Of a DNA stretch of 49,184 nucleotides, positions 5,169 through 34,040 are shown in pieces. The stretch is from Acidobacteriota bacterium. Its GTDB lineage: Bacteria > Acidobacteriota > Terriglobia > Terriglobales > Acidobacteriaceae. The stretch spans positions 14,338-63,521 of the forward strand of contig QIAH01000346.1 in assembly GCA_003225465.1 (NCBI GenBank). Reading direction: 5' to 3'. The notes under the pieces were generated by a model. The model did no database searches. It was not told where the DNA came from and saw only the letters and a list, made by a program, of their open reading frames with translations. Both the position numbers and the translations under genes were made by a program. Position 1 is the first letter of the stretch, and each line of letters starts with the position of its first letter.

Positions 5169-5230
5169 GGGCAACTTTCACTCAACTGTTTTGACGGTGA
5201 ACATAAGTCTTTCAACCAAGCGAGGAATCG

Positions 5231-5551
5231 ATGCAAAAGAAGTTCACTCTATCGAATGCACTTGCGCTGGCGCTGCTCGGGGTGCTGAGCATAACCATTG
5301 GCTGCGGCCGCAAAGTCGAAGGCAATACATATGAGGACAACGGTGGCGTGGTCAAGGTCGAGTTCAAGTCCGGTGGCAAGGCCTATGTTTCAACCGGACC
5401 GGTTACCAATACATGCAGCTACGAAGAAAGCGGCAAGAACGTCACCTTGGTATGTGAAGGCGACAAGACCGTATTCACAGTCGATGACGATGGGGCTCTG
5501 AATGGCCCGCCGGGTGGATTTCTGACGCGATTAACAAAAAAGAAGAAGTAA
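5231..5551 (+). CDS. Putative exported lipoprotein of unknown function (106 aa)
   Basis: ATG at 5231 follows GAGGAA with good spacing. Residues 1-25 are a lysine-started hydrophobic signal ending in ITIGCGRK. The cysteine is a likely lipidation site, although the lipobox (TIGC) is imperfect. The mature part is a small beta-rich domain: EGNTYEDNGGVVKVEFKSGG, then TCSYEESGKNVTLVCEGDKT and a VFTVDDDGALNG turn, with two cysteines that could form a disulfide. A short KKKK tail ends the protein. This looks like a periplasmic beta-sandwich or calycin-like domain; I do not recognise a named family. It lies alone between a decayed gene and a REP-like palindrome. Confidence 0.65.
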   Translation: MQKKFTLSNALALALLGVLSITIGCGRKVEGNTYEDNGGVVKVEFKSGGKAYVSTGPVTNTCSYEESGKNVTLVCEGDKTVFTVDDDGALNGPPGGFLTRLTKKKK

Positions 5552-5618
5552 GCGAACTTCGGCAACTGACTGCCACATTTGCGAACTGCAGCTTAGAGCT
5601 TTTAACCGCACGGTGCGC

Positions 5619-5679
5619 GCAAAGGCCGCCAAGAAAGAGTCTGTCTTTGCGAACTTCGCAAATCCTTGGCGGACTTTGC
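5619..5679. repeat. REP-like palindromic element
   Basis: Outer arms GCAAAGGCCGCCAAG (5619-5633) and CTTGGCGGACTTTGC (5665-5679) are complementary with one mismatch. An inner 8-bp perfect palindrome TTTGCGAA-C-TTCGCAAA occupies 5646-5662. The vocabulary (CGCAAAG, GCGAA, CCGCCAAG) is typical of intergenic REP elements dispersed in several soil bacterial genomes. It lies just upstream of the 616-aa gene and could affect its mRNA. Confidence 0.6.
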
Positions 5680-5706
5680 CGTCAAGAGTTTTTCTTGGGG
5701 GTCGCA

Positions 5707-7557
5707 ATGAAGAATCACAAAGTAACCGCTTTGCTGTTTGGAGTGATCGTTACCGCTTCCGCCGCTAAGGCCCAACAACCGCCACCTCTGCGAGTGAACG
5801 TGCCTTACACCTGTCCCGGCAACATGATCGTCGTCGTAAAGCACTGCGAAATGAGAGGCGGTGCTGAGGTTTGTTCCCTGGTAAAGGGTGCGCCGAATGG
5901 GCCACTCGGTAATGAAATTTCTATGCCGAAGGCACAGGCCGCCGCTCTGGGAGCCATCTGTACGACACAGGGTGGTCCAACATCGCAGTCCGTGGCCGGA
6001 CCGGCCGCGGGCGGAAGAGGACTCAATCCTCCTTATCTCAGCGAAATGCCTTCCCCGGATCGAGTCTTGGCCGCCATGAAAACCAACGATCCGCGCGAGA
6101 CTGCAGTGCGCCAAATATGGGCATTTTATGAACTGACCGAAATTATCAAGACATTGATGGGCGACCGCGAAAGCTCCCGTACGGGCATGCTGCCCGACGA
6201 GGAAAAGATCCTTAGAGATTACCTAGCTGCTCAATACAAGGTGAGCCAGGAGACGGACAAGGCTTTTCCAACCAACAAGCCCAGCGAGGATCTTACCTAC
6301 CACTTCAGCCGCTGGGACCCGAAGTTCGGATTTAAGGGCATCAATATCTGGCAATTTTTTTCCGACAACCTGCAATCGCAATTCACGCAGATCGTCGCGA
6401 AAGATAATGCTCGTTATGCTGCTCTGCGCGCTGAACAGAAGCGCGTCGCGGCTCAGGGAGTAAGCGCGGATCCGCAAGCAACCGTACCCAGGGTCCAACA
6501 GGGGATGAAAAATGACCCCGGCAGAGTTGCCTTGCGTCGCTGCGTCGAGTCGGGACGAAGCGAAATGGAGTGCCTCAGTGAAGGTCTAAAGGTTGGCCTC
6601 AAAGATCTGGCGGGAGGGGACATGGTCGCTGCCATTACCGGGGAGACTGCTCCTCAAGGGCTGCGTTTGACCGGCTCATATTCCGGTTCCACCGGAAACA
6701 AGATTCACCTTGCATTTAATCAGGACAAAGTCGTGGTTACCTGTGGTCCGCTTATCGCCGCGAGCTATCCATATGAGGTGGAAAGGGCGGCAAATCAGAT
6801 ATCCGTGAAGATATCCATCTCTCCCAAGCCGCTCGTTGTGGCGTTCAGGCCAGATAACCGCTTGGCGGGCCCGGCAGATGTGGCCGTGCATGGACTCGTG
6901 CCGATTGGCCATGGCGGAGGAGGATCATCTGCACCCGCCTATCAAACGCAAACCCAAACCACAACTCGGGAGCGGCAGATCGACGCCGCCGAGGCCCAGA
7001 ACTACGCTGGCACTGACGCTGTACATCAAAACGGAATGGAATATTCCGTGACCGAGCAGGTCACAAGCACCTCGTACGAACCAGCGCCAGTTGCTAATTA
7101 CCAGCTGCCACCGATGGCTCCCAAAACCGAGCAGTGCACCGCAGGAATTATGCAGGGCAGCAGCAGTTCCGGAAGCGTTATGGAATCATTGACGCAAGTT
7201 GTGGCTCCGTCCGCTAAGCAGAAACCGCCCGTACCTCCTGGTTTGCGATTGGCAGGCGTGTACGCAGGACAGAGCGGCCTTCGCATTGAATTCCGCGAAG
7301 ATTCCGCGACCGTGGAATGCGGGGAAACGCATGTTGCTCAGACTTATTCCATGCAAGACAACAACGGCCAAGTCTTGCTGAAGATCGAGAATGGCGCGAC
7401 GCCGATAGCGCTCGATTTGCAAGCGAACGGAACGCTGGTCGGATCGGGAGTAGTAGATGTTGCCGGACGCCTTGTCACCGGATCAACCGACAATGCTCTT
7501 ACCTATGCCGCAAGGAATGCTCGCTGCGCAGTGGGGACTCTTACACCCCAAAAATGA
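5707..7557 (+). CDS. Exported protein with two copies of a C-terminal beta domain
   Basis: The start is taken at the ATG at 5707 (MKNHKVTALLFGVIVTASAAKAQ), a clear signal peptide preceded by a G-rich stretch; the ORF-track start runs into the REP-like palindrome. The 616-aa product has an N-terminal domain with paired cysteines (VPYTCPGN, VKHCEMRGGAEVCSLV), a helical middle part, and two related segments: GLRLTGSYSGSTGNKIHLAF...VTCG (~318-400) and GLRLAGVYAGQSGLRIEF...VECG (~530-615). Each repeat has the same order of strands and one cysteine. The linker between them is glutamine- and threonine-rich (AYQTQTQTTTRERQ). No catalytic motif is seen. It is probably periplasmic or surface-bound. Confidence 0.75.
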   Translation: MKNHKVTALLFGVIVTASAAKAQQPPPLRVNVPYTCPGNMIVVVKHCEMRGGAEVCSLVKGAPNGPLGNEISMPKAQAAALGAICTTQGGPTSQSVAGPAAGGRGLNPPYLSEMPSPDRVLAAMKTNDPRETAVRQIWAFYELTEIIKTLMGDRESSRTGMLPDEEKILRDYLAAQYKVSQETDKAFPTNKPSEDLTYHFSRWDPKFGFKGINIWQFFSDNLQSQFTQIVAKDNARYAALRAEQKRVAAQGVSADPQATVPRVQQGMKNDPGRVALRRCVESGRSEMECLSEGLKVGLKDLAGGDMVAAITGETAPQGLRLTGSYSGSTGNKIHLAFNQDKVVVTCGPLIAASYPYEVERAANQISVKISISPKPLVVAFRPDNRLAGPADVAVHGLVPIGHGGGGSSAPAYQTQTQTTTRERQIDAAEAQNYAGTDAVHQNGMEYSVTEQVTSTSYEPAPVANYQLPPMAPKTEQCTAGIMQGSSSSGSVMESLTQVVAPSAKQKPPVPPGLRLAGVYAGQSGLRIEFREDSATVECGETHVAQTYSMQDNNGQVLLKIENGATPIALDLQANGTLVGSGVVDVAGRLVTGSTDNALTYAARNARCAVGTLTPQK

Positions 7558-25036: not shown

Positions 25037-25726
25037 TCACGCCCCTTGGCCCTGAGATTGTCCCGCCCATGAGCCTCCCCAGCCTGGCGCCATCAGATCG
25101 CGCATCTGCAAACGTGCACGCGAAGTGCGCGTCTTAACGTTCTCTTCTGAAATCCCCAGCATCTTCGCAGTTTCCGCAATGTTCATCTGCTGCACATCTC
25201 GAAGCACAAGGACGGTGCGGTATTTCTCGGGCAATGATTTGAGCGCCTTATTCAACGCTTCTCGCAACTCGCGCTGCTCCAGCGCGTCGGATGGAATCTC
25301 GCGCCAATCTGCAAAGTCGGTGGGAATGTAATCACCATCGTCCGTTTGCTGGCCGCTATCGAGCAACTCGTACAGATGCCGGCGAGCTTTGCGCAGCTTC
25401 ATCTTGGCCTCATTAATCGCGATCTGGATTAACCAGGTACTGAATTTAGATTCCTGCCTGAAGCGTGCGAGATGCTTGTATGCCTTCAGTATGGCCTCTT
25501 GCGCTGCGTCTTCGGCGTCGGCATCGTTGCCGAGGATTGATGCGGCCGCGAGGAACACCCCGCGTTCGTAAGGCCGGATCAATTCATAGAAAAGCTCCGT
25601 CTCTCCGGCAATGACGCGCTGCATCAATTCGCACTCGCGTGCTGTTTTAGCATCGACTGACTGCCCGGGCGCCGGTGCAACAGTAGTTGTGCCGGTGAGA
25701 ACAACGATGGGGCTGGGGCTCGTCAT
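25037..25726 (-). CDS. ECF (RpoE-like) RNA polymerase sigma factor
   Basis: Start at ATG 25726 (MTSPSPIVVL), overlapping the STAS gene by ATGA. Sigma region 2 is seen in ELFYELIRPYERGVFLAAAS and DAEDAAQEAILKAYKHLARF with KFSTWLIQIAINEAK. Region 4 is in LKSLPEKYRTVLVLRDVQQM followed by ISEENVKTRTSRARLQMRDL. Total ~229 aa with a ~35-residue low-complexity N-terminal extension and a Gly/Gln-rich tail. Such factors direct polymerase to stress or envelope promoters and are held by anti-sigma proteins. The candidate inhibitor is the convergent ZAS protein. Transcription comes from upstream of the STAS gene. Confidence 0.9.
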   Translation of the reverse strand: MTSPSPIVVLTGTTTVAPAPGQSVDAKTARECELMQRVIAGETELFYELIRPYERGVFLAAASILGNDADAEDAAQEAILKAYKHLARFRQESKFSTWLIQIAINEAKMKLRKARRHLYELLDSGQQTDDGDYIPTDFADWREIPSDALEQRELREALNKALKSLPEKYRTVLVLRDVQQMNIAETAKMLGISEENVKTRTSRARLQMRDLMAPGWGGSWAGQSQGQGA

Positions 25727-25989
25727 ATGGTTGTCTCCTTCAACTGCTGAGTAAGGAAGGCGGAGCAATTCACGTGTTCGACCTGGCGGGTCGCGAGTTC
25801 TCTCAGCAGTGTGGTTCCTCTCGGATCAACAAACCAGACTTTTGCGAGATCGAGCGTGAGCGTCTTTCTCTCCGACAACGTCTGCTCGCTTTGCTTGCGC
25901 AACTCGTTAACCCACGGACCGACCAGCCAACCTTCCAAGCTCAGCCGAACGCTTCCTTCTGACTCGTCAATGATCGAAATTCTCAGCAC
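25723..25989 (-). CDS. STAS-domain protein (anti-sigma-antagonist-like)
   Basis: A GTG at 25989 preceded by AGAGGAA is preferred over the ORF-track ATG at 26037; the product is 88 aa. The pattern LRISIIDESEGSVRLSLEGW, LVGPWVNELRKQSEQTL, LTLDLAKVWFVDPRGTTLLR fits a STAS fold (four strands and flanking helices). Classic antagonists carry a phosphorylated Ser in the DxSG loop; here the loop reads VDPRGTT, so regulation by serine phosphorylation is doubtful. Its stop overlaps the sigma-factor ATG, strongly suggesting co-expression. It may bind the sigma factor, an anti-sigma protein or another switch component. Confidence 0.75.
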   Translation of the reverse strand: MLRISIIDESEGSVRLSLEGWLVGPWVNELRKQSEQTLSERKTLTLDLAKVWFVDPRGTTLLRELATRQVEHVNCSAFLTQQLKETTI

Positions 25990-26820: not shown

Positions 26821-29013
26821 TCACACTGGCGCAGCTGCAGACGAACTCGGTTCAGAAACCGGGCGTTCGATGCCCAGCTTCTTCATTCTGCTGCGGAGTG
26901 TGTTGGGGTGGAGGTTGAGAATCTTCGCGGCGCCGCGAGGCCCTTCAATAACACCGCGCGTTTCAAGCAGTACCTGGACGATGTGAGCTCGCTCGACGTT
27001 CTCCAGCGAGTGGGGGGAATCGATCTGAGTAACGGAGGCACTAGTGCTTACGATCTCGTCTTCGCGCTGTTCGCTAGTGGCTGGCAGAAGGTCTTTTCCT
27101 AGTCGCAGCACAGTACCGGGGCATAACACCACCGCACGTTCGATCACATTCTGTAGCTCGCGAATATTACCCGGCCAGGAATACCGCGACAGCAGATCCA
27201 CGGTCTCCTGAGACATGCCTGTGATCTGTTTGCCGAACTGGCGACTGAATCTCTCCACGAAGAATGAGCCCAGCAGCGGAATATCGGCGCGGCGCTCCCG
27301 CAGGGGCGGTAAGGTAATCGGTAGTACGTTCAAGCGGTAAAACAAGTCCGCGCGGAAACGGCCTTCCTGCACAGCTTTCTCCAGATCACGGTTACTCGCA
27401 GCGATGATGCGCACGTTGACCTGGATCGTGCGGCTGCTTCCTAACGGCTCGAATTCATGCTCCTGCAGAACACGCAGCAATTTGACCTGTGTGTCGAGGG
27501 GGAGCTCGCTAACCTCATCAAGAAAAAGGCTGCCCCCATCTGCCAATTCAAAGCGACCGGTCCGACGTTCGAGCGCACCGGTGAATGCACCCTTCATATG
27601 CCCAAAAAGCTCGCTTTCGACCAGTCCGGTTGGGATCGCTCCGCAATTCACTTTCACTAGGGGTCGATGTTTGCGTCTGCTGTGATTATGAATCGCACGG
27701 GCAATTAATTCCTTTCCGCACCCGGTTTCGCCAAGGATCAACACGGTGGAATCAGTTGGGGCAACCGTCTCCACTCTTCGCAGGACATCCAGCAGACCCT
27801 TGCTGTTTCCGACGATCTCCTCGAAATTGTGCTCTTTGCGGATTTCTTCCTGGAGATAGATGTTTTCAGCTTCGAGCTTCTTCTGCAGCACTTGCACTTG
27901 TTGAAGCGCGGCCTGCAAATCTGCCTCGGCCCGCTGTCGCTTCAATTCCGCTGCAGCTCGGGCTGCAAAAATCGTGACCAGGTCGATGGCGTGAGGATCC
28001 CGCTCCATCGGCTTGTCATCGAGGATCGCGATGTGCCCGATCACCCGCCCACCGCTGTCAAGCATCGGAACACCGAGGTAGCTCTCCGCCTGCCAGTCCA
28101 CGAGGCCTGTGTCGAGAGGAAACAGCGCCTGGAGCCCTTCTTCGTAGTGGCACACCTCGCCTTTCAGCACCTTCATGCAGGGCGTATCTGCGATATCGAA
28201 CTCGAAGGTCTCTCCAAATCCGTCACCAGTCCAGACCGCCAAAACCTTGGCGCGCTTCTGATTGTCGCAGTCGCTGATAAATGCGTAGCGAGACCGAAGT
28301 GCTGTCGCCATGTGGCGTACCAGCGTCGGGAAGAACTCCTTCCCAGTAGCCGATGCGGTGCCGACCACAATCGACTTGAATCTCTCCTCTTCGAGGTGCC
28401 GCTCAGTAACGTCGCGCACCAATCCAATGACTCCGGTGATCGTGCCGTCGGCGTCGTGATGAGGAGCGAAGCTGCAAGATTCCCAAACATCCCTCCCGTC
28501 GGCCGAATGTTTGGGCACCAGAATATCCCGGACATGAACTGTCTCTCCACAGAGCGCCCGTTTCAGCATTTCTTCCAGCCCGCTGGTACGCAAACGGGGG
28601 AACACTTCAGCCGCCACTCTGTCCAAGACTTCTTCGGCATTCTTGCCGGTCAGCCGCTCCATGAATGGATTGAAGAGTTGGTAGCGTAGTTCGCGGTCGT
28701 AGAAGATGACCCCTTCGGCTGCGTCCCTGATGATTTCCTGGCTGATCTGAGTAGCGGCCTCTGCGGTTTTCTCTTGCTGTTTGGTTCGAATGCGAGCCAT
28801 GACCTGGCTCACGAGAGGTTCCATGTCACAGCCCGAGAGCGTAAACGATTCGCTGTCTGTAACAAACCGAATCGTCTTGCGGGTAGTGTCCATGATCACC
28901 TGGCAGGTCTTGCATTCGTGTAAGTGCTCCTCCAGGCGCGCCCTCGCTTGCGGATCGGCAGCATCCTCCAGATACTCCCCGAATTCGGTCAGGAATTCAG
29001 CGCAACTAAGCAT
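26821..29013 (-). CDS. ZAS-PAS-GAF-sigma54 AAA+-HTH activator
   Basis: The ATG at 29013 (MLSCAEFLTEFGEYLEDAAD) overlaps the sigma-fusion stop by 8 nt and is preferred over the ORF-track start; ~730 aa. Order: zf-HC2 anti-sigma-like domain at 1-70 with H30-xxx-C34-xx-C37 (HLHECKTC); PAS at about 95-215; GAF at about 220-370; coiled coil (VQVLQKKLEAENIYLQEEIR); AAA+ with Walker A GETGCGKE, GAFTGA (HMKGAFTGALERR) and Walker B DGGSLFLDEVSE; C-terminal Fis-type HTH (GAAKILNLHPNTLRSRMKKL). It should open sigma54 promoters in response to a ligand or signal sensed by PAS/GAF. The N-terminal ZAS domain suggests it also binds the ECF sigma factor encoded just upstream. I know of no family with this exact layout. 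Confidence 0.9.
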   Translation of the reverse strand: MLSCAEFLTEFGEYLEDAADPQARARLEEHLHECKTCQVIMDTTRKTIRFVTDSESFTLSGCDMEPLVSQVMARIRTKQQEKTAEAATQISQEIIRDAAEGVIFYDRELRYQLFNPFMERLTGKNAEEVLDRVAAEVFPRLRTSGLEEMLKRALCGETVHVRDILVPKHSADGRDVWESCSFAPHHDADGTITGVIGLVRDVTERHLEEERFKSIVVGTASATGKEFFPTLVRHMATALRSRYAFISDCDNQKRAKVLAVWTGDGFGETFEFDIADTPCMKVLKGEVCHYEEGLQALFPLDTGLVDWQAESYLGVPMLDSGGRVIGHIAILDDKPMERDPHAIDLVTIFAARAAAELKRQRAEADLQAALQQVQVLQKKLEAENIYLQEEIRKEHNFEEIVGNSKGLLDVLRRVETVAPTDSTVLILGETGCGKELIARAIHNHSRRKHRPLVKVNCGAIPTGLVESELFGHMKGAFTGALERRTGRFELADGGSLFLDEVSELPLDTQVKLLRVLQEHEFEPLGSSRTIQVNVRIIAASNRDLEKAVQEGRFRADLFYRLNVLPITLPPLRERRADIPLLGSFFVERFSRQFGKQITGMSQETVDLLSRYSWPGNIRELQNVIERAVVLCPGTVLRLGKDLLPATSEQREDEIVSTSASVTQIDSPHSLENVERAHIVQVLLETRGVIEGPRGAAKILNLHPNTLRSRMKKLGIERPVSEPSSSAAAPV

Positions 29014-30721
29014 CTGCTGGGTCCTTCTCGATGCGCATGAAGTGGGGAGCAAGGCTCTCCCGCAACATTAGTCGTCCCCGCAACACGCGCGCTTTCAGCG
29101 CCGGAACACCGAGTTCCAGAGCAGCGGCTGCTTCTTCACTCGAAAGTTGGTTGATGTCTCGCAAAATAAGAGCAATCCGATACTTTTCAGGCAATCGAAG
29201 GATCCCCTCCCGGACTAGCTCGCTTCGCTGGGCTGCGGAAAGCAGTTGCTCCGGATCGTCTGCCCAGCTTTGCACTTGCCGCGGACGAAAATCATCTTCA
29301 TCGTCCGTACTCTCCAGAGTCTCCAATGGTTTGCGTCGCCGGATGATCTCCGTTCCGGTGTTAATGGCGATGCTGAGAAGCCAAGTCGAGAACTTTGATC
29401 TTCCCTTGAACTGGCCTATCTTCTCGTAGGCCTTCAGGAACACATCCTGCGTCGCGTCATGGGCGTCATCCTCGTTCCCTACCATTCCTGCCAGCGTGCT
29501 GAAAACCCGGCGCGAATGACGGCGCACCAGTTCTTCGAATCCATCAACGTCGCCCCCCTGGACTCGTACCACTAGCGGCGCGTCTGGGTCGACCACAGGG
29601 ACCGCATCAACTGTAGGACGGGCTTCGCGGGACGCCGGATACAAATCTTTTGGCGTGAACACCCGGCGCGGCGGAAAATCAGGAACCGCCCCCAGCCCGA
29701 ACTGCAAGGTGTTGAGAAAATTAGTCAATCCGGCCATGACGATGGCTTCTATGATCTGAGGCTCGGTGAAGCCGTGCTGTCGAAGTGTGCCTCTATCGAG
29801 TTGAGCCTGAGGATGGCAGGATGACTGGCTCAGCTTGCGCACCTCGTCGAGCAGGGCTTTATCTTCCGTTGAGATGGGAGCAACCCGATGGTCTTCTACG
29901 ATCTGGTCGCATTCTTCGAGCGGCACACCAAGCGCGTTCAGTATCTGGGTGTGCACCGCGATAAGGTAGGTATTAAGGTTCGCCGCCGAGATCACCAGCA
30001 GGATGTTTTCCTTCTGGATACGACTGAGTAGGTCTTCCGCGAACAAGATGCGCTCGAGAGCCAGAACCTCGGCCTCGACCAGATCTGGTCTGACTGACTG
30101 GGCGCGAAAGAGATTCGGAATAAAGCCGATCTGCTCTCGAAGGCAGATGAAAGGCTGGCAATCAACAGCGTCTTGCGGAGGGGTACGGAGATAGGGTCCC
30201 GGCGTCTGAACCCAGTCTTCTGGAAGTTCCGGAAGCGCGTAGATTTCGTTGATGCGGGGCTGAACCACTTCAGAATCGAGTTTTGGCTGTAGGCCTTCTG
30301 CAAGGGTACAAAGCATTTGGCTGAGCGCCGTTGTGGCGATGGTCTCCAGAATTGCTGCATCGTCGAACCCAAATTTCGCCAGGCCTTCGACATCTTTCCC
30401 CGAAAAGCACGGTCCTTTGTGGGCCAGTTTCAAGGAAAATGCGAGAAGAGCATCGTCTTGGCGATCAGGCGTCGGGAAGGTTTGCGCGTAGAGAGCCTGA
30501 CAGTACTCGTTGTGCGAAGTCCTGGCCAGGGCCTTGAGGAGCGTCTGCTTCTGGTTCGAGGTTAGCTTGCCTCGGCTACCTTGGATTGCTCCCAGCAATT
30601 GTGCCTCTGCATGGATCGCACCGGGCACAGTGCTCAGAGCGCGAAACAGATTTGGAACGAAACCGTAGGCCGCAACCAGGACAGCTTCGATCTCATTCGG
30701 CGTTATGGGCAAGGTGCTCAT
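29006..30721 (-). CDS. ECF sigma factor fused to two AhpD/CMD-like domains
   Basis: 571 aa. Residues ~10-150 and ~188-350 are two alkylhydroperoxidase/carboxymuconolactone-decarboxylase-like helical domains. Domain 1 keeps one cysteine (SHNEYCQALYAQ). Domain 2 aligns closely with the divergent stand-alone protein (REQIGFIPNLFRAQSVRPDL against REQLGFLPNFYVAQTTRPDL) but has lost its cysteines (ANLNTYLIAVHTQ against ANLSTYCVTAHCE). A linker leads to sigma region 2 at ~393-465 (NEDDAHDATQDVFLKAYEKI, KFSTWLLSIAINTG) and region 4 at ~505-560 (LRLPEKYRIALILRDINQLS). It is probably a sigma factor whose activity is set by redox or ligand state of the N-terminal part. It is cotranscribed with the ZAS-containing sigma54 activator. 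Confidence 0.9.
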   Translation of the reverse strand: MSTLPITPNEIEAVLVAAYGFVPNLFRALSTVPGAIHAEAQLLGAIQGSRGKLTSNQKQTLLKALARTSHNEYCQALYAQTFPTPDRQDDALLAFSLKLAHKGPCFSGKDVEGLAKFGFDDAAILETIATTALSQMLCTLAEGLQPKLDSEVVQPRINEIYALPELPEDWVQTPGPYLRTPPQDAVDCQPFICLREQIGFIPNLFRAQSVRPDLVEAEVLALERILFAEDLLSRIQKENILLVISAANLNTYLIAVHTQILNALGVPLEECDQIVEDHRVAPISTEDKALLDEVRKLSQSSCHPQAQLDRGTLRQHGFTEPQIIEAIVMAGLTNFLNTLQFGLGAVPDFPPRRVFTPKDLYPASREARPTVDAVPVVDPDAPLVVRVQGGDVDGFEELVRRHSRRVFSTLAGMVGNEDDAHDATQDVFLKAYEKIGQFKGRSKFSTWLLSIAINTGTEIIRRRKPLETLESTDDEDDFRPRQVQSWADDPEQLLSAAQRSELVREGILRLPEKYRIALILRDINQLSSEEAAAALELGVPALKARVLRGRLMLRESLAPHFMRIEKDPADA

Positions 30722-30869
30722 AGCAGGCGCAATCTAGGGTATCCCAAAGACAAACTCGCAGTCGCGTGCTGCGGAATCGGCTGGACCTCAGCATCCGCCT
30801 GGTGACACACGGTTTGCGCGTTTTGCTCTATAATTTCGCCACTCTGTGAGTTCGCTTGGGGAGAAACAT
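30722..30869. promoter_or_regulatory. Divergent promoter region between the sigma fusion and the AhpD-like gene
   Basis: This 148-nt gap separates two divergent starts. A perfect TATAAT lies at 30829-30834, 36 nt before the plus-strand ATG. A GTGACA at 30802-30807 resembles a -35 box but the 21-nt spacing is too long. The arrangement suggests joint control of both genes; no operator was clearly identified. Confidence 0.4.
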
Positions 30870-31478
30870 ATGAGCTACCTGCGGAACCCTCCGTTTGACG
30901 AAAAGGATTTTCCCTCATTCGCCACGATGCGGGAGCAACTCGGATTCTTGCCGAATTTTTACGTGGCCCAAACCACGCGGCCCGACTTGATTGAGGCCGA
31001 GGTTGCGCTCATGGGCGCCATCTTGTTGAAAGATGGAGCCCTCTCAAGAAAGCAAAAGGAATACGTCTTCCTGGTTACGTCAGCGGCCAACCTGAGCACC
31101 TATTGTGTAACAGCGCACTGCGAAATCGTTCGCATGCTCAAGCTGGAAGGACCTGAGCCCGAGCAAATCGCCATCGATCACGTTCACGCCAAGATTCCGA
31201 TCGCCGACAAGGCACTGCTGAACTTCTGCGCCAAGTTCAACAAACAACCTTCCAAAATTGCCTCCAACGATATCGAGACCTTGCGTACCTATGGCTTCAC
31301 CGAGCAGCAAATAATGGAAGCAATTGTGATCGTCGGCTTTTCCCAGTTTGCCAACACCGTCGCATTTGGACTGGGAACCGTCCCGGACTTCCACAACGCG
31401 AAGATTAATGCCGCCCTCGGCCAGGGTGAGGGAGCGGCTCAGACGACGCAAGAAGCGCCCGCTACCTCTCGCGCTTGA
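30870..31478 (+). CDS. Stand-alone AhpD/CMD-like peroxidase-related protein
   Basis: The ATG at 30870 (MSYLRNPPFD) follows GGGGAG at good distance; 202 aa. The core helix carries AANLSTYCVTAHCEIV, with Cys, His and a second Cys as in AhpD-like peroxidase-related proteins. These proteins use such cysteines for peroxide or disulfide chemistry or act as decarboxylases. The whole protein aligns with domain 2 of the divergently encoded sigma-factor fusion, including DKALL, LRTYGFTEQQIMEAIV and FGLGTVPDF. It may share a ligand or redox signal with the fusion, or compete for a partner. The C-terminal ~20 residues are low complexity. Confidence 0.85.
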   Translation: MSYLRNPPFDEKDFPSFATMREQLGFLPNFYVAQTTRPDLIEAEVALMGAILLKDGALSRKQKEYVFLVTSAANLSTYCVTAHCEIVRMLKLEGPEPEQIAIDHVHAKIPIADKALLNFCAKFNKQPSKIASNDIETLRTYGFTEQQIMEAIVIVGFSQFANTVAFGLGTVPDFHNAKINAALGQGEGAAQTTQEAPATSRA

Positions 31479-31494: not shown

Positions 31495-33138
31495 TCAGGG
31501 ACGGATCCCGGGAATGTTCAGCCGGATTCGATACAGTCCTGTCTTCGCGCAGAGATAAAGTGTCTTCCCGTCATCGTCGCCCCAAGCGAAGTTGTGGGGG
31601 TGCTCGGGGCCAACGATCGTGCCAAGGTGTTTACCCTCCGGCGAGATAATCCACAATCCGCTGGGACCCGACACGTAAAGATTCCCCTTCTGATCGATTT
31701 TCATCCCATCGAGCGCATCTTTGCCTTCGGCCGATGTCATGTCGAAGAAAACTTTCCCGTTCGACAATGTTCCATCAGGATTCACTTCGTACCGCATGAT
31801 GATCTTCTTCTTCTCGTCCCAGTTGTCCACATAGAAATACTTTTCATCGGGTGAGAAGGCGAGGCCATTGGGGCCGCTCAGTTCGTTCGTCAGAAGTTGG
31901 ACGATCTTGCTGTCTGGAGACACGCGGAACACGCCGCTGTACGGCAACTCCTTGCGTGGATCGTCGAAGAACTTTGGGAGTCCGAATGGCGGATCGGTGA
32001 AATACAGCGCTCCATCCGATTTGTAAACCAGATCGTTAGGGCTGTTGAGCCGCTTGCCTTCATAGCGATCAGCCAGCACGGTAAGCTGACCATTCTTCTC
32101 CATGCGAACCACACGCCGATTGCCATGCTGGTTGATGGTGAGCCGGCCTTGCTTATCAAGCGTGAGCCCGTTGGAGCCAGGCTGGCCATACTCGCCAATG
32201 TCCACGCCGCGGTAGCCGGACTTCGTCATGAAGATCGAAAGCTGACCATCTTGTGTCCAGCGGTAGATAAGGTTGTTGTTGGGATCGCTGAATAGGAGGT
32301 AGCCGTCTGTGTCTTCAGTCCGCGGAACCCAAATGGGACCTTCGGTAAAAAGGAACCCTCCTGCCAGTTTCTCGATCTTCGCGTCCCTAGGAACAATCTC
32401 GTCCAGCGCTGGGTCTTTGCGTATCACTTGAGCCGGCGTGTCGTCGATGGCAACCTTGGGTGATTTATAGAAGTCGAGGGTGGCCGATTTGATCCAGATG
32501 AAATTCTGTGGGCTATAGGAGATCGGCCCGTTGATGCCGAAGACAGCGAGCTGAATCCGCTCGCCGGGCTTAACATGCCTCGCGATAATCAGACGGTTGG
32601 GAGCGTTGAATCCCTTGATGACAGGGCCGCCAGGTTGGCCGAGTACACGCGGCATCTTCCCGTCTACCCAGACTTCAGCGTAATCGTCGATCACAATTTC
32701 CAAGGCGACTGTAGAACCCGCGGTTTCAAGGTTGGCAATCCTCTCAGGGATGGTGATGTTGATGCGATACCAGTTGAAACACACCTTGGCCGTGGATCTC
32801 CGTTGGTCAAGGGTGGTGGCATCGATAGCTTCCCATTGCGAATCGTCGAAGTCCGCTGCGCCCGCGTGAGGAGCGTAATCATAGGTCTTGCTCGGTGCCC
32901 CGCTCGGCTTCAGGTCAGGTCCTACCGTGCGGGAGTCGGCATCAACGATCCTCACGTCGTGATACCGCCATTGGCCGTTCACCACTTGCACGCCTTCGCG
33001 TGAAGCCAAATCAACGACTGCGTCGGGGCGGCCGAAAGGAGGGTCCTGGATTGACTGTCCCTCAGCATTCAGAAATGCGAGTGACAAGATCAATGTCAGG
33101 AGTATTGAGAAACACAAAGTTCGCTGTCGGTTGTTCAT
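31495..33138 (-). CDS. Exported SMP-30/gluconolactonase-like protein with N-terminal sandwich domain
   Basis: 547 aa. Residues 1-28 form a signal peptide (FSILLTLILSLAFLNAEGQ). Residues ~40-235 resemble a galactose-binding-like beta-sandwich (NWYRINITIPERIANLETAG, VALEIVIDDYAEVWVDGK). From ~250 an SMP-30/gluconolactonase beta-propeller follows: IEKLAGGFLFTEGPIWVPRT, GVDIGEYGQPGSNGLTLDKQ, LNSPNDLVYKSDGALYFTDP, DALDGMKIDQKGNLYVSGPS. The E-GP, N-D-L and D-G-M positions match metal-binding residues of this family. It should hydrolyse a sugar lactone in the periplasm, which would fit the products of the sugar dehydrogenases in the 14.7-24.6 kb operon. It is the last gene of a three-gene minus-strand set. 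Confidence 0.85.
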   Translation of the reverse strand: MNNRQRTLCFSILLTLILSLAFLNAEGQSIQDPPFGRPDAVVDLASREGVQVVNGQWRYHDVRIVDADSRTVGPDLKPSGAPSKTYDYAPHAGAADFDDSQWEAIDATTLDQRRSTAKVCFNWYRINITIPERIANLETAGSTVALEIVIDDYAEVWVDGKMPRVLGQPGGPVIKGFNAPNRLIIARHVKPGERIQLAVFGINGPISYSPQNFIWIKSATLDFYKSPKVAIDDTPAQVIRKDPALDEIVPRDAKIEKLAGGFLFTEGPIWVPRTEDTDGYLLFSDPNNNLIYRWTQDGQLSIFMTKSGYRGVDIGEYGQPGSNGLTLDKQGRLTINQHGNRRVVRMEKNGQLTVLADRYEGKRLNSPNDLVYKSDGALYFTDPPFGLPKFFDDPRKELPYSGVFRVSPDSKIVQLLTNELSGPNGLAFSPDEKYFYVDNWDEKKKIIMRYEVNPDGTLSNGKVFFDMTSAEGKDALDGMKIDQKGNLYVSGPSGLWIISPEGKHLGTIVGPEHPHNFAWGDDDGKTLYLCAKTGLYRIRLNIPGIRP

Positions 33139-33149
33139 GTCACGCTCTC

Positions 33150-34040
33150 TTAACGAACCTTCACCACGTAATAGAGAAACGGATTGGTCACTTCTAGGAA
33201 CTGATGGGGAACACCGTGCGGCACGATGACGACGTCGCCCTTGGCGATCTGCCGGGTCTGTCCGTTGCGGATGCTGCTTCCACGGAGTTCGTCAGGCGCG
33301 GTGGTTTTCGCGTCGACGGCTTCGCCACCCGTGATGAAGGTGGCCGTCCCATCTAGTACATAGATCACGTCGGCGTCTTTCGTGTGGATCTCTACCTGCC
33401 CGGGCTTTTCCCGGCGACTGGCGTGAACCATGTAGTTGCGGCCATCCCTTCCGTCAAAAAGCACTGACCCTTTGGCAAAGGCTTCTTCGACTTGGCTCTT
33501 GTCCCAATAAGACACGGCCGGCGACGAGTCGCCATTCGTGCTCGTCGCGCTGGTGTCGAATGCCTTCGAGCCTGCGATCGCCAACTGCTCGTCCTGATCT
33601 GCGGTCGCGGCCCCGCTAACGCCCACGCCGCCCACGATCTGACCGTCAACCAAGATCGGGATGCCGCCGATGAGCGGGGTGAAGTTCTCCAGCGCCGTCA
33701 TCACCGTCCGGCCTTTGCCATTGGAGTTGATCAGTTCTTCAAAGAACCGGGTGGGCTTCTTGAACATCACGGCGGTTTTCGCTTTGCCGATTGAAACGTT
33801 GGCGCCGGCGGAGAATGTATTATCGAGCCGTTCAAGCGCCATTAGGTTGCCGCCATCATCAACGACTGCGATCACCGCGCCGGGAGCATTGAGCTGTTTT
33901 GCTTGAGCTTCCGCCGCCGCAATGACTCGCTTTGCGCCATCGAGAGTTAAGGCTTTCTTGTCGGCGATCTGAGCGGATGCAGTAATAGCAGTCATTACTG
34001 CAAGCAAGAAACTGAGAGGAATTGCGCCTTTTTTTCTCAT
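33150..34040 (-). CDS. Exported GlcG/HbpS-domain protein fused to a cupin
   Basis: The ATG at 34040 follows AAGGAG. A signal peptide (SFLLAVMTAITASAQ) precedes a GlcG/HbpS (DUF336) domain at ~30-170: GAKRVIAAAEAQAKQLNAPG, AVIAVVDDGGNLMALERLDN, IGGIPILVDGQIVGGVGVSG. A cupin domain at ~205-296 ends it: HTKDADVIYVLDGTATFITG, GDVVIVPHGVPHQFLEV. HbpS-like proteins bind heme or cofactor-like ligands and occur as extracellular sensors or carriers. The cupin could bind a metal or sugar acid. A second GlcG/HbpS protein is encoded at 43910-44692. It lies 12 nt upstream of the lactonase gene. Confidence 0.85.
   Translation of the reverse strand: MRKKGAIPLSFLLAVMTAITASAQIADKKALTLDGAKRVIAAAEAQAKQLNAPGAVIAVVDDGGNLMALERLDNTFSAGANVSIGKAKTAVMFKKPTRFFEELINSNGKGRTVMTALENFTPLIGGIPILVDGQIVGGVGVSGAATADQDEQLAIAGSKAFDTSATSTNGDSSPAVSYWDKSQVEEAFAKGSVLFDGRDGRNYMVHASRREKPGQVEIHTKDADVIYVLDGTATFITGGEAVDAKTTAPDELRGSSIRNGQTRQIAKGDVVIVPHGVPHQFLEVTNPFLYYVVKVR

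Follow-up and report, generated by a model that had tools for sequence, protein, structure and literature searches.

What does an ECF sigma factor that carries AhpD-like domains in its own polypeptide have to do with a free AhpD-like protein encoded just across the intergenic region? We took up this question in a stretch of 49,184 nucleotides from an Acidobacteriota bacterium (the window). A sequence-only reading of it had paired the stand-alone protein (SA) with a sigma-fused copy, as an enzyme and its sensor-only derivative. What that reading observed is borne out by our analysis, and its interpretation in part. The two genes, and the domains of the fusion (D1, D2 and sigma), are located as follows.

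30870..31478, plus strand: SA, stand-alone AhpD-like protein, 202 aa; start set by homologue alignment
29006..30721, minus strand: D1-D2-ECF sigma fusion, 571 aa; Pfam Sigma70_r2 and r4_2, two TIGR01926 stretches
30227..30721, minus strand: D1, first AhpD-like domain, residues 1-165; HNEYCQALY, with Cys kept and His changed to Tyr; active-site helix shortened
29660..30196, minus strand: D2, second AhpD-like domain, residues 176-354; NTYLIAVHT, with both cysteines lost and His kept
29009..29599, minus strand: ECF sigma part, from residue 375, regions 2 and 4; Pfam, NCBIfam and Foldseek

The stand-alone gene is real. Its open reading frame stops at 31478 and has two candidate starts, a GTG at 30846 and an ATG at 30870; the latter is favoured because homologue alignments begin there, at MSYLR/MSFLR, and the GTG was rejected on the same ground. 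SA scores 102.6 bits against the peroxidase-related enzyme family TIGR01926 (curated cutoff 81.8) and 30.4 against Pfam CMD (cutoff 23). Its closest solved relative by sequence is 2prr (E 8.7e-26), which is also the nearest by fold (AlphaFold2 model, pLDDT 81.8; Foldseek E 8e-9). At one related locus (L105:6974-7607, plus strand), SA is broken across two frames, either by a frameshift or by an assembly error.

The fusion passes as an ECF sigma factor, with sigma-70 regions 2 (57.3 bits) and 4 (r4_2, 36.5 bits) only, and Foldseek matched its sigma part to SigW, SigE and AlgU. Its TIGR01926 score, 107.2 over two stretches, is likewise above the family cutoff, and all 21 fusions of set A2 contain CMD, Sigma70_r2 and Sigma70_r4_2 by Pfam. 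The sigma-fused copy that had been described is thus D2, which aligns as quoted, but the fusion holds two AhpD-like domains and D1 had been overlooked. Elsewhere, an ECF sigma factor has a single SA-type AhpD domain joined to it in frame (L126:1552-2634, plus strand); NLSTYCVTAHCEIV is intact in this domain, whose first ~20 residues are weak or missing and whose start is unsure.

How closely are the free and fused copies related? SA shares 48% identity with D2 (E 1.7e-44), and the next-best match to SA in the same genome, outside the locus, reaches 28%. A tree was built from 85 domains (22 D1, 23 D2, 14 SA plus L126, and outgroups). It resolves SA, D1 and D2 as three ancient paralogous clades (support 95/89, 100/98 and 100/99, respectively), with the outgroups outside (100/99). 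SA is probably the sister of D2: the branch that joins them, with D1 and all outgroups outside, has modest support (87/72). The family-tree test therefore bears out the proposal that the stand-alone and fused copies are close relatives. The duplication that separated them is old: the nearest relatives of the window's SA are other SAs (77%), not D2.

We then compared the active sites. The proton relay of AhpD consists of Glu, Cys, Tyr/His, Cys and His (PMC3141380). SA holds four of these five residues (Glu64, Tyr78, Cys79 and His83), all invariant in 14/14 SA proteins of our residue table; the first Cys is replaced by Ser76 (Ser in 13/14, Asn in the remaining one). The thioredoxin-like CxxC active site of AhpD is thus absent from SA, the spacing being Ser76-x-x-Cys79 in 13/14. 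An extra, clade-specific Cys84 follows directly on His83 (YCxxxHC) in 12/14; it is not among the known catalytic residues of AhpD. The cysteine changes reported for the fused copy are exact: SA reads AANLSTYCVTAHCEIV and D2 reads AANLNTYLIAVHTQIL, with Cys79 changed to Leu and Cys84 to Thr around the common His83. At the relay positions the window's D2 has Glu, Asn, Tyr, Leu and His, then Thr, and its D1 has Gln, Asn, Tyr, Cys and Tyr; the predicted model of D1 lacks a helix after the motif. Across the loci, D1 and D2 are variable at these positions, unlike SA, and both have Asn, Ser or Asp in place of the first CxxC Cys, except for one D1 that has Cys.

These active-site residues set SA apart from the standard CxxC peroxidases, and enzymatic function is something we infer for it. 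Because the first catalytic Cys is missing from SA, D2 and D1 alike, peroxidase activity may be absent. This loss also favours a different reading, in which SA, D1 and D2 would each sense a ligand without catalysis and the SA motif is kept for binding rather than redox chemistry; a precedent for such an AhpD-like sensor is the leucine-binding SESN-C of sestrins (PMC11429811). We consider this quite unlikely: the relay residues Cys79, His83 and Glu64 are invariant in all SA proteins, the dN/dS of SA is 0.06, and Cys stands where sister genes have selenocysteine, which points to chemistry.

Those sister genes, from about 40 Acidobacteriota loci (L036-L092, L148-L151), are AhpD-like and have an in-frame TGA exactly at the second CxxC Cys (CxYU). 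They are probable selenoproteins by this alignment; an AhpD-like selenoprotein family with selenocysteine at the second Cys (CxYU) is already known. Amber-recoded selenocysteine in AhpD-like relatives, suggested by an in-frame TAG in several matches of a genome search, was rejected, since the alignment places this TAG outside the active site, where Cys stands; we take the TAG of these copies as an ordinary terminator near the C-terminal end. A further sister group of stand-alone AhpD-like proteins (L131-L147) carries SGIN-x-S-x-YC and likewise lacks the first Cys.

Does the presence of a free SA go with decay of D2? Of the cassettes in which SA is linked, 10/11 have a broken YCxxxHC motif in D2, vs. 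1/11 of those without (Fisher p 3e-4); this association is not significant after a tree-aware correction, which leaves only 2-4 independent contrasts (sign test). No SA-type copy was found elsewhere in the genomes scored as lacking SA; in the L095 genome, SA lies on another contig. There are exceptions in both directions: L094 and L095 have SA together with an intact D2 motif, and L120 is without SA, yet its Cys84 is broken. Cysteine loss in the fused copy, as the sequence-only reading described it, thus holds for the window's genome and its Terriglobia relatives, but D2 has an intact YCxxxHC in most cassettes without SA and in L094 and L095. Each cassette checked retains Cys79 together with His83 in one domain or more.

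The constraint on D2 differs in the same sense. Among the seven Terriglobia loci with SA, mean pairwise identity is 76.9% for SA, 72.8% for sigma, 54.5% for D2 and 43.8% for D1; in a clade of five without SA, it is 71.5% for D2, 69.4% for sigma and 56.5% for D1. Pairwise dN/dS of D2 is 0.22-0.31 with SA present and 0.08-0.16 with SA absent (the sigma value of 0.28 for L099-L105 is based on very small dS). Cys84 is among the four least kept of 59 constrained D2 columns (kept 0.11; mean 0.74), the reference group for these columns including the SA-bearing L094 and L095. By these measures, cysteine loss in D2 accompanies a general relaxation of the domain, and this relaxed constraint, like the anatomy, the paralogy and the motif distribution, is an observation.

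The association of SA with D2 decay could be an accident of shared ancestry or sampling: the independent contrasts number only 2-4, and the pattern scan that supplied loci favoured intact motifs. We hold this to be possible but doubtful. The losses took different forms (TYL/HT, TYF/HG, SYL/HS, TYC/HG, TYC/GC, IYW/LLS and, in L106, a segment deletion). In addition, profile searches blind to the motif, run on several hundred genomes, led back to the same loci, added L126 and L130, and gave no new cassette with a broken D2 and no SA, which argues against a large sampling bias. In the motif-blind subset alone, D2 is broken in 3/5 with SA and 1/8 without. The L106 fusion (5188-6759, plus strand), with its D2 active-site segment deleted, has an intact SA just downstream.

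Which other parts of the locus might connect SA with the sigma factor? The intergenic region and the flanking genes contain the following.

30722..30869, no strand: divergent intergenic region common to fusion (minus) and SA (plus); sequence reading, same arrangement in L099, L100, L101, L102, L105 and L109
30829..30834, plus strand: TATAAT, a -10-like box 41 nt upstream of the SA ATG; recurs in relatives
28753..29013, minus strand: ZAS anti-sigma-like domain, MLSCAEF...HLHECKTC (Cys + HxxxCxxC); zf-HC2 23.7 vs. cutoff 22.2
26821..28752, minus strand: PAS-GAF-sigma54 AAA-HTH_8 activator, in frame with the ZAS domain (743-aa ORF); Pfam
31495..33138, minus strand: exported SMP-30/gluconolactonase-like protein; Pfam SGL, conserved neighbour
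33150..34040, minus strand: exported HbpS-like plus cupin protein; Pfam, conserved neighbour

One divergent control region with a clean TATAAT had been proposed. The box itself is conserved, each of the seven orthologous regions with divergent genes having a -10-like hexamer (TATAAT, TATAAA, TGTAAA or TATAAG) between -28 and -41, but it has no good -35, and a scan found no sigma-70 promoter at 30829-30834. A search for a conserved ECF promoter found none: the ECF motif GGAA[CT]-N14-18-[CT]GT gave 3 matches vs. 1.5 expected upstream of the fusions, SA and the SGL operon, and no conserved block was found upstream of the SGL operon.

The ZAS assignment rests on its Cys/His and HxxxCxxC motif, on a gene adjoining its sigma factor and on a zf-HC2 score above the cutoff. 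The last 8 nt of the fusion gene, at its 3' end, overlap the start of the ZAS gene at its ATG, and HxxxCxxC is present beside each fusion in each of 21 related loci checked. ZAS-type pairs include RpoE-ChrR and SigW-RsiW, in which the sigma gene likewise adjoins and overlaps one that encodes a small Cys/His zinc-finger protein; the sigma factor here differs in carrying its own sensor domains, and the ZAS in this genome in being fused to a sigma-54 activator. The ZAS, rather than SA, is more likely the direct regulator of the sigma factor.

The whole arrangement is a rare and conserved cassette that the sequence-only reading had overlooked. Our scans gave about 25 loci, nearly all from Acidobacteriota (one, L111, is labelled Methylomirabilota). 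The fusion comes first, the ZAS gene overlaps it, and many of the loci then have SA. SA lies downstream within the operon in L094, L106, L107 and L108 and is divergent in the window and in the loci listed with its intergenic region. No further fusion was found among 60 genomes related to that of the window, and a cassette member was present in 6/257 genomes of another order in the class. Two relatives (L097, L098) have the sigma factor without AhpD domains, ZAS and SA. Frequent neighbours are SGL, HbpS-cupin and a small exported protein; copies of the SGL protein are 68-87% identical in L094, L100, L101, L102, L105 and L112, and those of the HbpS-cupin protein 72-81% identical in L100, L101, L102 and L105.

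ECF sigma factors with fused sensors are already known. Among the closest known systems is ECF41, whose members extend by about 100 aa at the C terminus, lack an anti-sigma gene and have CMD neighbours that all carry CxxC (PMC3426412). Both are ECF sigma factors with a fused extra domain and an adjoining, often divergent, CMD-family gene; in contrast, the extension here is N-terminal and itself a tandem of AhpD-like domains, the sigma factor is accompanied by a ZAS gene, and CxxC is missing. Assignment of the fusion to ECF41 was rejected, since region 4 is followed by about 18 aa before the chain ends and the ZAS gene overlaps. Literature searches for an annotated ECF group with an N-terminal CMD, with the ECF re-classification paper outside their reach, yielded ECF41 only, and no published description of tandem AhpD-like domains on an ECF sigma factor with ZAS and a free paralogue was found in the literature.

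The ECF41 precedent also bears on the role of SA. Its adjacent CMD gene is a target and was shown to lie outside signal transduction (PMC3426412). By analogy, SA could be a mere target gene, with D1-D2 sensing the same compound without chemistry. Its placement would suit this: every linked SA in an Acidobacteriota cassette is in the same operon or divergent, and SA sits with the exported SGL and HbpS-cupin genes. However, the region upstream of SA lacks an ECF-type promoter, its conserved box being -10-like, and a target-gene role fails to explain why D2 keeps an intact motif and sigma-like conservation where SA is absent. We regard such a role as conceivable, though on the improbable side.

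The reading we favour is instead that the ECF sigma factor carries a two-domain sensor of the sestrin type, whose thiol partner would act in cis (D2) or in trans (SA); we judge it about evenly balanced between right and wrong. SA would be the thiol-bearing member, by virtue of Cys79, His83 and Glu64 plus Cys84, and the tandem D1-D2, comparable to the paired AhpD-like halves of a eukaryotic sestrin, would serve for sensing or docking. A peroxide, an electrophile or a small metabolite may serve as the signal, reacting with SA via Cys79/Cys84, and the reacted SA would associate with D1-D2; assembly into trimers and hexamers is a property of AhpD-like proteins. Contact of SA with D1-D2, presumably through D2, would alter the hold of a sigma-bound ZAS and so transcription of the putative target genes. 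In cassettes without SA, D2 would bear the reactive motif and act in cis; in those with SA, the fused domains would be freed from chemistry and decay to pseudo-enzyme sensors.

How far does the likeness to known AhpD-like proteins extend? SA shares its fold and the Glu/Tyr/Cys/His of the relay with the AhpD and TIGR01926 proteins (2prr, 2pfx, 3c1l, 2oyo, 6k40; PA0269; M. tuberculosis AhpD), passes the curated TIGR01926 cutoff, and differs in having Ser for the first CxxC Cys and the extra Cys after His (YCxxxHC). Sestrins, sensors in a regulatory complex, have two AhpD-like halves per chain (SESN-A and SESN-C), one without catalytic cysteines, and tandem AhpD proteins in which one half lacks Cys also occur in bacteria (PMC11429811); unlike the fusion, neither has a sigma factor. 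By Foldseek, the D1-D2 model aligns with Sestrin2 across about 400 columns at 11% identity (TMt 0.54), but the overall superposition is poor, with an rmsd of about 9 A over the tandem. At the sequence level the sestrin matches of SA are weak, with a score of 20.5 against the Pfam PA26 gathering score of 29.4, and no PA26 was found among the fusions. D1-D2 is thus not a sestrin by the Pfam cutoff, but may work in a similar way.

The origin of sestrins from fused AhpD-like dimers is debated, and the cassette would be a bacterial counterpart to them. The broader proposal is a bacterial sestrin-like switch, in which the sigma-fused AhpD tandem would sense redox or a metabolite through a reactive Cys held in cis on D2 or on a free paralogue docking on decayed domains; this we offer tentatively and rate as rather unlikely. 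If it is true, the chemistry of one signalling pathway has shifted, in the course of evolution, from fused to free copy or the other way. The loci form a natural series of fused domains (intact, partly broken, deleted) vs. the presence of the free copy, with which the change from enzyme to sensor and the handover of chemistry from cis to trans become directly testable.

Among the loci seen, the window alone has ZAS in frame with a PAS-GAF-sigma54 activator (26821-29052, minus strand); in L100, L101 and L102 each has an ORF of its own, and the activator carries an additional PAS at its N terminus. Unless it stems from an assembly error, the ZAS-activator fusion would link sigma-54 control with an ECF anti-sigma factor. 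Another ECF sigma gene lies nearby (25037-25768, minus strand), with homologues at the same place in L099, L100, L102, L105 and L109.
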